A DNA stretch of 58,679 bases. Source: Bacilli bacterium (GTDB lineage Bacteria; Bacillota_I; Bacilli_A; RF39; UBA660). The stretch lies in assembly GCA_017936845.1 (NCBI GenBank), contig JAGBES010000016.1, positions 1 through 58,679 on the forward strand, in the 5' to 3' direction. Of the stretch, positions 32,010-50,106 are shown piece after piece (within the stretch, counting starts at the first letter, position 1; each line of letters starts with the position of its first letter). The position numbers and the translations under genes were made by a program. The notes beneath the pieces are model-generated. The model did not search any database, was not told the DNA's origin, and was given only the letters and a program-made list of their open reading frames with translations.

Positions 32010-32534
32010 ATGCGTATTATAAGTGGAAAATATAAAGGGAGAAAATTACTTGGTCAAAATATAGAAGGAACTAGACCTACAATGGATAGAGTTAAAGAAT
32101 CATTATTTGGAATAATTCAAAATAATATAAAAGATAGTATATGTTTAGATTTATTTGCTGGAACAGGTGCTTTAGGCTTAGAAGCAATAAGTAATGGTGC
32201 AAAAGAATGCTATTTTATAGATAAAAATATAATATCTATAAATATAATAAAAGAAAATTCTAAAGGAATTGAAAATGTAAAAATAATGAATAAAGATTAT
32301 TTAAAAGCACTTAATGAATTAAAAAATATTAAATTTGATGTTATATTTTTAGATCCACCATATAAAATGAATTTAATACAATCATCATTAAATAAAATAA
32401 AGGAAAATAATATGTTAAATAAAAATGGAATAATTGTATGTGAATTTGAAAAAGAAGAATTTGAAATAGATTATTACATATTTAAAGAAAAGAAATATGG
32501 AAATAAAAATATAAGAATTTATCAAAATAAGTGA
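32010..32534 (+). CDS. rsmD: 16S rRNA (guanine966-N2)-methyltransferase
   Basis: 174 aa. MRIISGKYKGRKL and RPTMDRVKESLFGII are the RsmD start; SAM-binding LDLFAGTGALGLEA and catalytic LDPPYKM (DPPY) follow. Methylates G966 of 16S rRNA during 30S assembly. Ribosome binding site AGGGTGAAGAAA. The bacteriocin exporter gene starts 76 nt downstream after a terminator. Confidence 0.95.
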   Translation: MRIISGKYKGRKLLGQNIEGTRPTMDRVKESLFGIIQNNIKDSICLDLFAGTGALGLEAISNGAKECYFIDKNIISINIIKENSKGIENVKIMNKDYLKALNELKNIKFDVIFLDPPYKMNLIQSSLNKIKENNMLNKNGIIVCEFEKEEFEIDYYIFKEKKYGNKNIRIYQNK

Positions 32535-32610: not shown

Positions 32611-34680
32611 ATGAAAAAATATCCATTTGTAAAGCAAGAGGGATTAAAAGATTGTGGAGTTTGTTGTCTTTTAATGATTATCAATTATTATAAAGGATAT
32701 GTCCCAATAGAAAAATTAAGAAGTATGACTAAAACAAATAAAAATGGTGTTAATGCTTATAATTTGATTGAAACAGCTAATAAGTTAGGTTTTAACGCAA
32801 AAGGTTTAAAAGTAGATAACCTAGATGTAAATATAAATTTACCAGCTATAGCTTTTGTTACTATAGATAAGTCATATAATCATTATATTGTGATATATGA
32901 AATAAATAAAGAAAAGAAAGAAATAATTATCGCCGATCCTGCTAGTGGGATAAAGAAAATGAATTATGAAACCTTTAATAAAATTTTTAATAATATTATT
33001 CTCGAATTTAAATGTATAAAAAAATTACCCCTATATAATAAACCTCTAAAATTTTTAAAATTCTCAATAAACATATATAAAATATATCAAAAAACATTTA
33101 TAAAAGTAATTATTCTTTCTTTATTTATAACAATATTATCAATAATTGGTTCATTTTATTTAGAATATATAATTAATGGTATAAATAAAAATAATAAAAG
33201 TCTTCTTTCAATAATTTCTATAATATTCATAATAATTTATATATTAAAAAATACTATTGATTATATAAGAAATAAAATATTATTAAAAATAACAAAAAAA
33301 ATAAATCTTAAACTTACAAATGATATTTTTTCAAAAATTATTTTACTTCCTTATGAATATTTTAAAAATAGAACAACAGGAGAAGTATTAACAAGAATAA
33401 ATGATTTAAATATTGTAAGTCAAACAATAATAAAAGTGATTATAACTATAATATTAGATATGTCATTAAGTATTATTTCAGCTTTTTTCTTAATCAAAAT
33501 AAGTTATAAATTATTTATAATAACTTGTATCATTTTAGCTTTATATTTTTTAATAATTAAAATATATAAAAAGGAATCAGAAAAACTATTAGAAAAAATA
33601 AAAGAAGAAGAAGCAAATTTAAATTCTTATATAATAGAGAACATAAATGGCTTTGAAACAATAAAAGGATTATCATTAGAAAAAAATATTATTGATAATT
33701 ATAAATTAAGAAATTATAATTTACTAAATGAAAATTATAATTATGAAAATAAATTTATAAAAGAGTATTTTTTAAAAAACATAATAGATGATTTAGGAAT
33801 AGTTTTAATAGTATTTATAGGATCTATATTAGTAATTAATAAAGAAGTAACATTAGGTAATTTAATAACATATAACTCATTATTTTTATTTTATATAAAT
33901 CCTTTAAAAAATATAGTTAAATTATATAAAGATATAAAAGAAGCTAAAATATCTTATAATAGAATAAATGAATTAGTATATGAAGAAAAAGAAAATACTA
34001 TATATCATAACTTATTGTTTAAAAATATTAAAATAAAAAATCTAAGTTTTAGTTATGATAATATAAAAGAAGAACTAAAAAATATAAATTTAGAAATAAA
34101 GGATAAAGAAAAAATAATGATTATAGGGAAAAGTGGAAGCGGAAAAAGTACGTTGTTGAAACTTATAAAAAAGTATTATCAAGTAGATGATGATAAAATA
34201 TTCATTGATGATGTAGATATTAATAAGATATCCAAAAAAGAAGTAAATCATAATATAACTTATGTATCTCAAAATGAAATATTATTTACAGATACTCTTT
34301 ATAATAATTTGGTATTAGGTAGAAAAATTAAATTAAAAAGAATAAATAAAATAATAAAAAAATTATATTTTGATTTTATGGATAATAATGGTTTAAATAT
34401 GCTTATAGAAGAAAATGGTTTCAATTTATCAGGTGGACAAAAACAAAGAATTGTTTTAGCAAGATCCCTCCTAAACAATTTTAAAATATTAATATTAGAT
34501 GAAGCATTAAGTGAAATAGATATTAATTTAGAAAGAAAAATATTAAAAAATATATTAAAAATATATAAGGATAAAACAATTATTTTAGTATCACATCGTT
34601 ACAATAATATTGATTTATTTGATAAAGTAGTAAAAATAGAAAAAGGTAATGTAAATTCATTAGAAAAGAAAGGAAAATAG
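32611..34680 (+). CDS. Peptidase-containing ABC exporter (C39, bacteriocin processing)
   Basis: 689 aa, full length for a PCAT. Domain 1 (1-140) is a C39 cysteine peptidase with Cys15 in KDCGVCCL, His91 in NHYIVIYE and Asp109 in ADPASG. Domain 2 (about 160-440) has six membrane helices. Domain 3 is the ATPase: Walker A GKSGSGKSTLL, signature LSGGQKQRIVLARSLL, Walker B ILDEALSEID, switch VSHRY. It cleaves double-glycine leaders and exports the mature peptide. Such precursors are encoded directly downstream. Ribosome binding site TTGAGGAGGTGAAAAG. Confidence 0.95.
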   Translation: MKKYPFVKQEGLKDCGVCCLLMIINYYKGYVPIEKLRSMTKTNKNGVNAYNLIETANKLGFNAKGLKVDNLDVNINLPAIAFVTIDKSYNHYIVIYEINKEKKEIIIADPASGIKKMNYETFNKIFNNIILEFKCIKKLPLYNKPLKFLKFSINIYKIYQKTFIKVIILSLFITILSIIGSFYLEYIINGINKNNKSLLSIISIIFIIIYILKNTIDYIRNKILLKITKKINLKLTNDIFSKIILLPYEYFKNRTTGEVLTRINDLNIVSQTIIKVIITIILDMSLSIISAFFLIKISYKLFIITCIILALYFLIIKIYKKESEKLLEKIKEEEANLNSYIIENINGFETIKGLSLEKNIIDNYKLRNYNLLNENYNYENKFIKEYFLKNIIDDLGIVLIVFIGSILVINKEVTLGNLITYNSLFLFYINPLKNIVKLYKDIKEAKISYNRINELVYEEKENTIYHNLLFKNIKIKNLSFSYDNIKEELKNINLEIKDKEKIMIIGKSGSGKSTLLKLIKKYYQVDDDKIFIDDVDINKISKKEVNHNITYVSQNEILFTDTLYNNLVLGRKIKLKRINKIIKKLYFDFMDNNGLNMLIEENGFNLSGGQKQRIVLARSLLNNFKILILDEALSEIDINLERKILKNILKIYKDKTIILVSHRYNNIDLFDKVVKIEKGNVNSLEKKGK

Positions 34681-34713
34681 AAAAACATATCCAAAATATA
34701 GAAAGGAGTAATT

Positions 34714-34770
34714 ATGTTTAAAAGATTATTTAAAATATTATTAAAAATTATTAAATTAGTAAGAATATAG
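34714..34770 (+). CDS. 18-aa cationic amphipathic peptide
   Basis: MFKRLFKILLKIIKLVRI, no leader, net charge about +6, with Lys/Arg spaced so that they fall on one face of a helix. Start supported by GAAAGGAGTAATT. It lies 33 nt after the exporter and its stop is followed at once by the AGGAGG site of the next ORF. It could be a leaderless bacteriocin, an inducer, or a translation-coupling peptide; these options cannot be separated from sequence. Confidence 0.55.
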   Translation: MFKRLFKILLKIIKLVRI

Positions 34771-34778
34771 GAGGAAAT

Positions 34779-34919
34779 ATGAAAGAATTAAAAGAACAAG
34801 AATTAAAAAATATAAATGGAGGAGCATTTAAAATAGGTATTGGATTGGCTATAGCTGCAGGTGTAACATTTTTAATAGGATTAGTAGATGGTTACGTAAG
34901 ACCATTAGCTTGTAGATAA
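34779..34919 (+). CDS. Bacteriocin-like precursor 1, double-glycine leader, 46 aa
   Basis: Leader MKELKEQELKNINGG ends in GG, the C39 cleavage site, giving a 31-residue core AFKIGIGLAIAAGVTFLIGL...YVRPLACR: a hydrophobic Gly/Ala-rich helix, then a short tail with one Cys. Ribosome binding site AGGAGGAAAT overlaps the previous stop. The stop overlaps the next ATG (TAATG). Class II-like bacteriocin by leader and exporter context; activity not shown. Confidence 0.78.
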   Translation: MKELKEQELKNINGGAFKIGIGLAIAAGVTFLIGLVDGYVRPLACR

Positions 34920-35080
34920 TGAAAGAATTAAAAGAACAAGAATTAAAAAATATAGTAGGTGGACTTAAATTTTCAGCCGCACTATTTAGTTCAGTTGTAA
35001 AAGGTGTAAGTCTTTTATTAGAACTAGGAAGAAGTGTTGGAACAGCTATAAGAAGAGTAAAGACAAATAAATTATGTTAG
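34919..35080 (+). CDS. Bacteriocin-like precursor 2, double-glycine leader, 53 aa
   Basis: Leader MKELKEQELKNIVGG is identical to that of precursor 1 except N13V. The 38-residue core LKFSAALFSSVVKGVSLLLE...LGRSVGTAIRRVKTNKLC has an amphipathic helix, then a basic tail ending in Cys. Start overlaps the upstream stop by 1 nt, so the two peptides are made together and may act as a two-peptide bacteriocin. Confidence 0.78.
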   Translation: MKELKEQELKNIVGGLKFSAALFSSVVKGVSLLLELGRSVGTAIRRVKTNKLC

Positions 35081-35244
35081 GAATAATAAAAAAAAATAAA
35101 CAAATATTTTTTGTTATCTTAATAATATTGTTAATACCATTTATAATGCCTATAATAGAAATACTATTTAATTGTTTAATTAATCTTGGTAGAATATACG
35201 GAACAAAATTAAGGTTAATAGAACAAGGAATATGCTTTAAATAA
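35074..35244 (+). CDS. Hydrophobic 56-aa protein ending the bacteriocin operon
   Basis: MLGIIKKNKQIFFVILIILL, then a second hydrophobic stretch and the tail NCLINLGRIYGTKLRLIEQG-ICFK. The tail shares LGRxxGTxxR and a near-terminal Cys with precursor 2, but the N-terminus is a membrane segment rather than a double-glycine leader. It overlaps precursor 2 by 7 nt. It could be an immunity protein or a variant that sits in the membrane and mimics the peptide. Confidence 0.6.
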   Translation: MLGIIKKNKQIFFVILIILLIPFIMPIIEILFNCLINLGRIYGTKLRLIEQGICFK

Positions 35245-35268
35245 AGGACTAAAAATCCTTTTTTTTCT
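35243..35268 (+). terminator. Terminator of the bacteriocin operon
   Basis: AAAGGA-ctaaaaa-TCCTTTTTTTT, overlapping the last stop codon. Confidence 0.8.
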
Positions 35269-40731: not shown

Positions 40732-42876
40732 ATGAAGAATAAAAAAGGTTTCACATTAATAGAGTTATTAGCAGTCATAGTAATACTAGCAATTATCGCA
40801 CTAATCGCAACCCCAATAATATTAAATATGATAAATGATGCAAAAAAAAGTGCATCAGTAGATTCAGCATACGGTTATATTGAAGCCATAGAATTCAATA
40901 ATTCAATGGCTCAAATAGATAATAAAAAATATACACTAATAAATGATGGAACGGATATAGATGTAAATACAATTGGAAATATAGGAATAAAAGGAACAAC
41001 ACCAGAAAGTGGAAAAGTATCAATAACAAAAGGAAGAATAATAAAAGCAACACTTTGTATAAATAGTTATAATGTAGAATACGATGGAAAAGAAGCAAAA
41101 GTAAAAGGAAAATGTAATGAAGAAGAAACCAATTTAGAAACTAATGATAGCTTATTAGGATATGTAGCAAAAAAAACATTAAAGAATAATACATATGAAA
41201 CAATAAAAATAAAGGATGAAACATATACAGCACATGTATATAATTATAATGGGAATCAAACATGGACAAGTGATATGACATTTGGAGATAGTAATGATGT
41301 AGCAACAAAAGATGAATATGCCAAAAATATGATTATAGTAAAAGTAAATGGAGATTTAACAATAAATGAAGGAGTAACAGTAACAGCCTATGCAAGTGAA
41401 GAAGGATATGGAGGACCAAAAGGGTTATTCATATATGTAACAGGAACATTAACAAATAATGGAACAATATCAATGACAGCAAGAGGAGCAAAAGCAGAAG
41501 GACAAAATGTATATTTATTTAAAAATAGTGATGGAAGTTATGAATATGTTCCTAAAAAAGGGGCAAATGGTGGTTCAAATATAGCAGCTAGTGCAATATA
41601 TTATTATTCTGGAGGATGGTATTATAATATTGCATCAGGCAACAACGGAAATTATTCAAATGGAAGAGAATTAGCTGGTGGAGGATCAGGAAGTGTTAAC
41701 GTTTCGGTTCAAAATCATGTTGTAGTATCTAATAAAGGTGGAGATGGAACATCATATTCTGGAGGAACAGGCTCTGGCGAAACATTTTCTGTAGATATTT
41801 ATACTCAAAATCCTTCTTTCGCTTCAAATACTGGTGGTCAAGGAGGAAATGGATATTCAAAAGAAACTCCTGGATATGGACCAACTTACGGATCAGGAGG
41901 AACAGGAAATCCAGGAGGATTTGGATATTCAAGTATAGGAACAGCAAACCAAACTAAAGAAATATCAAAAAACGGTTCAAATGGTACAGGTGGTTTAATT
42001 ATAATATATGCAAACAAATTTAATAATGATGGATTAATTTCTTCTGATGGAACAGATAATTTAAATAATGGTGGTGCATCAGGTGCAGGATCTATAAATA
42101 TATTTGCTAAAAATATAGAAAAAAAAGGAAATTATAGTACAATTGGTGGTAAAGGAACTATATCAGAAATACCATCGTATAAAAAGAAAATAAAAGGTGG
42201 AGATGGAGGAAATGGTTCAGTAACAATTGGTACAATGGAAAATAACAAATTTAAAATATACAATCCAGAAAATATTAAATCAGAAAGAATACTTGTGTAT
42301 AAAAATTATCAATTAGAAGATAAAAATTGTAATTTTAAAACTACAGATGAAAATATAATAAAAGTAGATACAAATGGATTAATTACTTCAATGGCAAATG
42401 GTACAACTGAAATTAATTTATACGACAATAATGATAAATTGCTAAAGAAATATATTGCTAGAGTTAATATGAATCCAATAACTATTACTAAAAATATATA
42501 TAATGGTAGTGTAACAAATTATCCATATTGGGGTTCACAATTATTTGATGAAATCTATACTAAACAGGGAAAATATGGAACACTCAATATGGGACCAAAA
42601 CCATCTGGATCATCATATTATTTTACAGTTGAAGAAGATCTATATATTACTTTTACAAGTAATTATTATAGTGATTCACTAGGCCCTTCTGGACAGATGG
42701 TTGAATTTAATAAAATTGATGAAAATGGTAATGAAACTGAATATATAAAATTTCAACAAAAAAATAATACTCAAAAATATAATAAACAATTTTTTACGAA
42801 AGGAAATTATGTCGTTAGAAATGCAACAACATATGGATATGTAGTATTTGATGAATGGGATATATCATATGAATAA
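40732..42876 (+). CDS. Prepilin-type Gly-rich adhesin with Ig-like domain, 714 aa
   Basis: Prepilin leader MKNKKGFTLIELLAVIVIL, cleavage after G, then a membrane helix. A pilin-like region to about residue 130 is followed by a large Gly/Ser/Asn-rich domain (300-470: GGSGSVNVSV, GGTGSGETF, GGQGGNGYS), and a Big_2-like Ig domain (NFKTTDENIIKVDTNGLITSMANGTTEINL) plus a C-terminal beta domain. Secreted, pilus- or wall-linked display is likely. Ribosome binding site TAGGAGAGTG. The gene sits within a repeat-bounded insertion. Confidence 0.85.
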   Translation: MKNKKGFTLIELLAVIVILAIIALIATPIILNMINDAKKSASVDSAYGYIEAIEFNNSMAQIDNKKYTLINDGTDIDVNTIGNIGIKGTTPESGKVSITKGRIIKATLCINSYNVEYDGKEAKVKGKCNEEETNLETNDSLLGYVAKKTLKNNTYETIKIKDETYTAHVYNYNGNQTWTSDMTFGDSNDVATKDEYAKNMIIVKVNGDLTINEGVTVTAYASEEGYGGPKGLFIYVTGTLTNNGTISMTARGAKAEGQNVYLFKNSDGSYEYVPKKGANGGSNIAASAIYYYSGGWYYNIASGNNGNYSNGRELAGGGSGSVNVSVQNHVVVSNKGGDGTSYSGGTGSGETFSVDIYTQNPSFASNTGGQGGNGYSKETPGYGPTYGSGGTGNPGGFGYSSIGTANQTKEISKNGSNGTGGLIIIYANKFNNDGLISSDGTDNLNNGGASGAGSINIFAKNIEKKGNYSTIGGKGTISEIPSYKKKIKGGDGGNGSVTIGTMENNKFKIYNPENIKSERILVYKNYQLEDKNCNFKTTDENIIKVDTNGLITSMANGTTEINLYDNNDKLLKKYIARVNMNPITITKNIYNGSVTNYPYWGSQLFDEIYTKQGKYGTLNMGPKPSGSSYYFTVEEDLYITFTSNYYSDSLGPSGQMVEFNKIDENGNETEYIKFQQKNNTQKYNKQFFTKGNYVVRNATTYGYVVFDEWDISYE

Positions 42877-48342: not shown

Positions 48343-50106
48343 ATGAAAGATAAAAAAGCTTTTACATTAGTTGAATTACTAGCAGTTATTGTAATATTAT
48401 CAGTGATAGCCTTGATTGCAACACCATTAATATTAAATATAATAGAAGAAGCTAGATATGGTTCGTTTAAGGATTCAGTTTATGGAGCTTTGAAAGCTTC
48501 TAAAATCGCACTTGCTAATGAAAATCTTGAAGATTATCCTAATACAAAACTAACTATTAATTTTTCAACAGGTAGTAATGTTAGTAAATTAGGTTTAAAT
48601 GGATCTATTCCAAAAGCAGGTTATTTAGTAATTGATGAAGAAGGTAGGACAGAACTTTTAATAAGCGATAATAGATATTGTGCTAAAAAATCATTTGGAG
48701 ATGATGATATAACAATAGAAAAATATGATGCAGCAAATTGTAAAACATGGTATAAAGAAGATATATTAAATGGAGCTGATCCAATATTAAAAGATAATTT
48801 AATACCAGTAATAATTAGTGATGATGGAACAGTAAAAAAAGCAGATATATTAAAACAGTGGTATAAATATGAAAATAAAGAATGGGCAAATGCTGTAATA
48901 TTAAAAGATGGAAAAACAGTAGAAAGTGATAATACTATAAAAGAAGAAAATATTAAAGAATATTATGTATGGATACCAAAATATGCATATAAGTTATGGA
49001 ATGTAGATAGTAATAATACTGAAAATGTTGGAAAACCAATTGAAATAGTATTTGGTGAAAAAGCAACTACTACAGGAACTGATAATGGAGATATGTATAT
49101 ACATCCTGCATTTACAAATTTTAATACATATGGAATCTGGGTAGGAAAATTTGAAATAAGTTATGATGAAGAATCATTTACAAAAAAAGATACATTCTTA
49201 AAAAAGAATCCAAATTATTCAGTAGCAACAGACTCATCTAAATTAATAGTAAAACCAAATACTAGAAGTTTAACAAATAAAAAAGTTAGTGATTTTTATA
49301 AATTAATAAAAAACAGTCATCAAGATTTAAATAGTCATATGATGACAAATATGGAATGGGGAGCAGTAGCATACCTAACATATTCAAAATATGGAAGATG
49401 TAATGAAAAAACATGTACTGAAGTAACAATAAATAATATAAATACAGGATATTATAGATCATCAGCAGTATTCTCAGGACAATGGGAGTATGGAGCAACA
49501 ATAACAGGATGTGCAGCAGATACAGTATCAGCTGGTGTAATATCAAATGTAAATGAATGTACAAATAAATATAATACTACTAAAGGATATCTAGCTAGTA
49601 CAACAGGAAAAATAAGTGGAATCTATGATATGAGTGGAGGAAATTGGGAGTATGTTATGGGTGTATTAGAAAATGCTAGTGGGAAATTATATTCTGGAAG
49701 AAATAGTAAATATAATAGTGGATTTAAAGGATTATATGGATGTCCTACATGTAATTCAGATACAAGTGGTTTAACAGAAAATACTACAGGATTAGATTTT
49801 CCAAATAATAAATACTATGATTCATATATAAGTAGTGATGAAATTGGAACAAATGTTTGGTATAAATATACATCTGGAAAATTAGGAGATGCAACAAAAG
49901 AAATAGCTAATACAAAAGAAAATTCTTTAAGTGGAGATAGAGGTTTATGGTTTAATGATTTAGCATCATTTCCTTCACTTAATGCAACATTTTTTATACG
50001 TGGTTCTAGATATATTGGTGGTATGAGTTCAGGTGTTTTAACATTTGGTAATTGTACAGGAATTTCAAATAAATATATTTCAACTCGTTCTGTCCTAGCA
50101 TTTTAA
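48343..50106 (+). CDS. Prepilin-type protein with FGE-sulfatase/C-type-lectin-like domain, 587 aa
   Basis: Leader MKDKKAFTLVELLAVIVIL, with A in place of G before FTLVE, unusual for prepilin peptidase cleavage. A pilin-like region extends to about residue 130. The C-terminal part resembles the formylglycine-enzyme-like fold: GIWVGKFEISYD, GNWEYVMGVLENASG, FFIRGSRYIGGMSSGVLTFG and end STRSVLAF. This fold is used by variable ligand-binding proteins, including DGR targets. Ribosome binding site AAGGAGAATTGTT. Confidence 0.8.
   Translation: MKDKKAFTLVELLAVIVILSVIALIATPLILNIIEEARYGSFKDSVYGALKASKIALANENLEDYPNTKLTINFSTGSNVSKLGLNGSIPKAGYLVIDEEGRTELLISDNRYCAKKSFGDDDITIEKYDAANCKTWYKEDILNGADPILKDNLIPVIISDDGTVKKADILKQWYKYENKEWANAVILKDGKTVESDNTIKEENIKEYYVWIPKYAYKLWNVDSNNTENVGKPIEIVFGEKATTTGTDNGDMYIHPAFTNFNTYGIWVGKFEISYDEESFTKKDTFLKKNPNYSVATDSSKLIVKPNTRSLTNKKVSDFYKLIKNSHQDLNSHMMTNMEWGAVAYLTYSKYGRCNEKTCTEVTINNINTGYYRSSAVFSGQWEYGATITGCAADTVSAGVISNVNECTNKYNTTKGYLASTTGKISGIYDMSGGNWEYVMGVLENASGKLYSGRNSKYNSGFKGLYGCPTCNSDTSGLTENTTGLDFPNNKYYDSYISSDEIGTNVWYKYTSGKLGDATKEIANTKENSLSGDRGLWFNDLASFPSLNATFFIRGSRYIGGMSSGVLTFGNCTGISNKYISTRSVLAF

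Follow-up and report, generated by a model that had tools for sequence, protein, structure and literature searches.

A peptide exporter gene followed by four very small open reading frames (ORFs) raises two questions: whether the frames are genes, and what kind of system they encode. Such a locus lies in the window (the whole stretch of DNA analysed here, 58,679 nucleotides from a Bacilli bacterium), where five forward-strand genes follow one another in the order C39-peptidase ABC exporter, 18-aa ORF, precursor A, precursor B and protein I, between rsmD (Cons_hypoth95, 32010–32534) upstream and rpsU (from 35338) downstream. The stop of A and the ATG of B overlap by 1 nt, and B and I by 7 nt. 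An earlier note on this DNA had described a compact operon of a C39 exporter, two double-glycine precursors and a 56-aa hydrophobic protein, with overlaps of 1–7 nt; the ORFs are present as described and the domains were matched.

Very AT-rich sequence contains many short ORFs, and the small frames might be suspected of being chance products. We regard the probability of this as negligible and the idea as already refuted, since the ORFs recur across more than 100 genomes and their dN/dS values fall far below 1. We instead consider it reasonably probable that this is a vertically inherited operon encoding an unmodified two-peptide (class IIb-type) bacteriocin.

Exporter and paired precursors

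The exporter (689 aa, 32611–34680) is predicted to cleave double-glycine leaders and export the resulting peptides. It contains a peptidase C39 domain (residues 3–135, 32617–33015; PF03412, 2e-35), an ABC transmembrane domain (residues 164–432, 33100–33906; PF00664, 6e-37) and an ATP-binding domain (residues 489–633, 34075–34509; PF00005, 2e-29). In the window the ABC motifs and the catalytic residues of the C39 domain (C15/H91/D109) are preserved, and this C/H/D triad is invariant in 119/119 relatives. Scores of 437.1 bits against TIGR01193 (peptide cleavage/export ABC transporter, cut-off 523.85) and 336 bits against NF045998 (Mbov_0121, cut-off 500) both fall below the cut-offs, which makes the exporter a divergent relative of these families. 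The operon thus has the dedicated C39 ABC exporter that is one of the marks of class IIb. No lanthionine synthetase adjoins the exporter, the neighbours being rsmD and rpsU, and the locus is therefore not of the lantibiotic (class I) type.

To follow the operon in related genomes we examined 121 distinct loci and counted gene content in those whose downstream sequence reached 1 kb or more (n = 109). The earlier note had staked its reading on conservation of the small ORFs in relatives that bear the exporter, and on this point the reading holds. All 109 loci encode A and 105 encode B; 67 encode I and 80 an accessory protein, discussed below. The order exporter-accessory-A-B-I is invariant across all loci scored. 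Two adjacent small double-glycine precursors, a second mark of class IIb, are thus found in 105/109 loci.

Precursor A (46 aa, 34779–34919) consists of a leader, MKELKEQELKNINGG (34779–34823), and a 31-aa core, AFKIGIGLAIAAGVTFLIGLVDGYVRPLACR (34824–34916), which forms a Gly-rich transmembrane-like helix ending in GYVRPLACR. Precursor B (53 aa, 34919–35080) has the leader MKELKEQELKNIVGG (34919–34963) and a 38-aa core, LKFSAALFSSVVKGVSLLLELGRSVGTAIRRVKTNKLC (34964–35077), an amphipathic helix ending in LGRSVGTAIRRVKTNKLC. Across the 109 loci the leaders are of the canonical double-glycine kind (L-12, E-8, L-7, I-4, G-2, G-1). Those of A and B in the window had been noted as near-identical, and they do contain an exact 36-nt repeat (34779–34814 and 34919–34954) within 45 nt that match at 91%, so that the first 12 leader residues of the two precursors are the same. 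Because the A and B leaders have mostly diverged from each other in relatives, the repeat suggests that the leader underwent gene conversion in the window in the recent past.

The core peptides had been thought to match no nameable bacteriocin class. This is incorrect for A, which scores 39.1 bits against the class IIb family TIGR03949 (lactobin A/cerein 7B, cut-off 21.5) and is a member of it, as matched also by the A peptides of 13/17 relatives (E 0.01). The claim stands for the B core and for I, neither of which found a convincing match in Pfam or NCBIfam; B is below the TIGR03949 cut-off (15.5 bits) and exceeds a cut-off only for the generic leader model TIGR01847 (16.9 vs 15.7 bits). A resembles the lactobin A/cerein 7B family over residues 2–39, comprising a double-glycine leader and a Gly-rich hydrophobic core, but its invariant C-terminal PxxC lies beyond the matched stretch. 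Profile searches of the PDB with A and B returned no convincing sequence relative.

GxxxG, a further mark of class IIb, occurs in 107/109 A cores and 104/105 B cores, and the A C-terminus follows the pattern GxxxGxxxPxxC in 102/109. There is a Cys among the last ten residues of 105/109 A and 105/105 B peptides, and exactly one Cys in the core of 96/109 A and 100/105 B peptides, with both partners of 89/105 pairs having just one. The peptides of gallocin A have two Cys each and form hairpins closed by intramolecular disulfides (PMC10100652), whereas the single Cys per core found here sets A and B apart from that disulfide subtype. The one conserved Cys in each partner suggests that A and B may be linked by an inter-peptide disulfide, for which a limited search of the open-access literature found no precedent.

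Protein I and its resemblance to B

Protein I (56 aa, 35074–35244, forward strand) is a putative immunity protein. It has an N-terminal basic hydrophobic helix and a basic C-terminus as in B, LGRIYGTKLRLIEQGIC, and it matches the B profile; GxxxG is present in 67/67 I proteins. Comparison of profiles built from B cores (n = 105) and I (n = 67) gave a match spanning 24 columns (LGRxxGTxxRxI....C), with a probability of 94.8 and a score of 33.4, compared with 14.5 for the best of 120 column-shuffled profiles and 13.0 for the reversed profile; the same comparison between A and I gave no match. By this measure I and B are homologous in their C-terminal halves. The I gene overlaps B in 66/67 loci (median 13 nt), implying coupled expression, and AlphaFold2 predicts I to be one long helix (pLDDT 87).

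From the B-I homology, the gene overlap and the predicted single helix, we infer that I is a protein of the producer membrane that presents a B-like helix and may confer immunity through this mimicry, along the lines suggested for gallocin A. In that system the third gene encodes an immunity peptide, GIP, that resembles its own toxins GllA1 and GllA2, and immunity by competition was proposed from predicted structures (PMC10100652). The two systems are alike in having two peptides followed by a small putative immunity gene whose product is toxin-like, but here I is a predicted single long helix and its resemblance to B is visible in the sequence itself. Carnobacteriocin XY is likewise a two-peptide bacteriocin with a very small immunity protein, the 42-aa single-transmembrane CbnZ (PMC8538875), to which we liken I by description and not by sequence; neither a B-like immunity sequence nor family-wide vertical inheritance is described in the part of that source available to us. 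The self-protection of two-peptide producers ‘remains a mystery’ (PMC6957408), and a B-like putative immunity protein offers an answer at the level of sequence that can be tested.

Under the class IIb-type interpretation, the C39 domain of the exporter would cut the leaders of A and B after GG and the cores would be exported. A and B would then pair through GxxxG in the target membrane and cause ion leakage, while I would stay in the producer membrane and protect it, its B-like C-terminal helix occupying A or a shared receptor. C39 cleavage, export, GxxxG pairing, membrane leakage and protection by I are taken over from class IIb biology (PMC8538875), and killing too is a predicted step.

It is improbable that I is instead a third effector subunit, a leaderless B-derived membrane helix that joins A and B or acts from inside in a holin-like manner. 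Its likeness to B, the shared invariant GxxxG and basic C-terminus, and the overlap of its gene with B would all suit such a role. However, I has neither leader nor export route, its N-terminal basic hydrophobic helix is typical of a retained membrane protein, and it is dispensable in a third of loci, so that A and B must be able to work alone. A small membrane protein is encoded with the peptides in the window and in 67/109 loci; no I is detectable in 38/105 loci with B, and an iterated model recovered no further I genes. These loci naturally without I provide a built-in comparison for its role as a putative immunity protein. Nor is there support for I following the B of its own locus: pairs from the same locus were no closer than random pairs (608/5000 permutations as high), and no locus-specific co-variation of B and I was found. 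Both this result and the loci lacking I call for caution over immunity by mimicry.

Distribution and descent of the operon

Exporters matching at E 1e-66 or better occur in 343/386 genomes and 142/150 genera of the window's family (f1), whose members are probably uncultured. In a class-wide sample the A profile matched 50 members of the family, four listed family genomes being without a match, and outside the family it matched 4 of about 340 genomes, weakly and in the N-terminal part only. In a phylum-wide sample the B profile matched all 19 genomes of the family, and elsewhere gave weak matches that were nearly all limited to the N-terminal, leader-containing part. In these samples A and B were found almost only in this family. 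Searches of plasmids with A and B (tblastn) gave no meaningful match. The chromosomal site is partly conserved, with rpsU within 1.6 kb downstream in 62/109 loci and rsmD upstream in 34/111.

The exporter tree largely matches that of RpoB, which was used as phylogenetic marker (Glx-tRNA synthetase was dropped because its paralogues mix). Among 41 genomes the exporter and RpoB distances are correlated (Mantel Spearman r 0.56; 0/2000 permutations as high), and of the 16 exporter-tree splits supported at 0.95 or above, 12 are also found with RpoB. The operon is thus vertically inherited, mostly descending with the chromosome. Mean pairwise identity is 0.78 for RpoB, 0.40 for the exporter, 0.49 for the A core and 0.45 for the B core. 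Closely related pairs (exporters sharing about 67% identity or more, dS finite) gave dN/dS values of 0–0.26 for A, 0.02–0.26 for B, about 0.13–0.36 for I and 0.17–0.52 for the accessory protein, and all four are real, constrained genes under purifying selection.

Bacteriocin operons are usually patchy and mobile, and bacteriocins usually diversify and move between lineages. This operon is apparently a trait of nearly the whole family, retained over the age of about 150 genera, with peptides as conserved as the exporter, and is thus a good test of why a lineage never gives up a two-peptide toxin. The conservation of the cores between genera and their vertical descent argue against a bacteriocin, as does the frequent lack of I, which would be odd if A and B were strongly self-toxic. 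The main rival to the class IIb-type interpretation, unlikely in our judgement, draws on the same observations of a near-universal, vertically inherited operon with strongly conserved cores under purifying selection and an I gene that is often absent. On this view the exported A and B act as a signal or at the cell surface and have a core role, be it in signalling between cells, in kin recognition or in envelope function, with I as a receptor-side or modulating protein. However, neither the operon nor the interval from rsmD to rpsU encodes a histidine kinase, a response regulator or any other receptor, A belongs to a bacteriocin family, and class IIb is the better fit for two membrane-helix peptides with GxxxG plus a small membrane protein coupled to them. 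A bolder and still less probable combination is that A and B form a covalent disulfide heterodimer through their single C-terminal Cys, that I is a B-derived membrane decoy, and that the whole serves not occasional warfare but a core function of the family, either kin recognition or self-signalling.

As a class IIb-type system, the operon would represent a new, family-wide and vertically inherited subgroup in which each peptide has one Cys and the candidate immunity protein is B-like. Its unusual features are near-universal vertical inheritance, the C-terminal position of the one Cys in each peptide, the B-like putative immunity protein, and an 18-aa peptide that alternates with a larger accessory protein. 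We found no report of the operon in the open-access literature. Large-scale IIBacFinder mining covers about 280,000 gut genomes (PMC12648078), and the resulting atlas may already list the A and B precursors.

The 18-aa peptide, the accessory protein and the surroundings of the locus

The 18-aa cationic peptide that had been noticed after the exporter (MFKRLFKILLKIIKLVRI, 34714–34770, forward strand) is amphipathic, has no leader and is preceded by the ribosome-binding site AAAGGAG. ORFs of the same type (15–20 aa, with a ribosome-binding site) lie between exporter and A in 11/18 testable gaps without an accessory gene, compared with an expectation of 0.26 under dinucleotide shuffling. On the RpoB tree the carriers sampled make up a single clade, the window's genus among them, and the peptide is a real gene of this clade.

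In 80/109 loci the place between exporter and A is taken by an accessory protein of about 145 aa, which is lacking from the window operon. Another member of the window's genus (L004) has a 148-aa accessory protein (L004:1053–1499, minus strand) in place of the 18-aa peptide. The accessory protein is predicted (pLDDT 87) to combine a transmembrane helix with a beta-barrel and a helix at the C-terminus, and its best structural matches in the PDB are MacA, MexA and AcrA (E 0.04–0.12, probability 0.92–0.99). The transmembrane helix and beta-barrel recall MacA/MexA-type membrane fusion proteins, and pneumococcal Spr0693 is also among the best matches; the matches are weak, however (E 0.04–0.3), and the helical hairpin is absent.

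Since the 18-aa peptide occupies the site at which relatives encode this membrane-fusion-like protein, it most likely assists the exporter in its place, although its role is deduced from position. We think it rather unlikely that the peptide is an independent, leaderless antimicrobial. Its charge of +6 would suit an antimicrobial, as would an amphipathic moment that ranks within the highest 2.5% of shuffled versions of the peptide. However, such ORFs are confined to loci that lack the accessory protein, where they always come immediately after the exporter; the peptides of other genera carry less charge (+1 to +4), and there is neither a dedicated exporter nor an immunity gene for such a product. 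A derivation of the peptide from the C-terminal helix of the accessory protein, as a remnant, found no support (shuffle p 0.04–0.68).

Mycoplasma systems with a C39 exporter and accessory protein (NF045998 Mbov_0121, NF045999 MAG1140) are similar, although both components fall below the cut-offs, the accessory protein reaching at most 22.4 bits against NF045999 (cut-off 35). Double-glycine leader ORFs also occur in other Bacilli families sampled, but what these precursors have in common with A and B is limited to the leader and a short Gly-rich stretch, and their C-termini differ; their equation with A and B was rejected, as only the leader region matches. Six genomes from other families (L214, L215, L216, L217, L218 and L220; small, mostly single-contig, 0.7–1.0 Mb and mycoplasma-like) carry single ORFs with double-glycine leaders whose C-termini are unrelated; no C39 exporter adjoins these ORFs within the stretch examined, and the exporter may lie elsewhere. 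In three others from other Bacilli families (L221:1151–1330, L222:4782–4970 and L224:5532–5705), the double-glycine peptides have in common an unrelated C-terminal motif, YRLFMSSxGxxTLPGGFKFTW, and possibly constitute another conserved single-peptide family.

A common terminator had been proposed for the operon, and this detail is weak. The terminator-like hairpin AAAGGA/TCCTTT at 35243–35266 (forward strand), spotted by eye, has a 6 bp stem with 2 GC and leads into a run of T; it is no more stable than shuffled sequence (z = 0.00) and is under the threshold of a terminator scanner. Beyond rpsU lies a 147-aa ORF that we take to be YqeY-like, and YlbD, YlbE and a weak SirA match, which suggest Bacilli, were found near the operon in the window. 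Also nearby is a PD-(D/E)XK nuclease family transposase-type protein (PF12784, 29596–30573). Further downstream, prepilin-type N-terminal methylation motifs are present in two proteins of 714 and 587 aa (40732–42876 and 48343–50106), a size unusual for pilin-like proteins.
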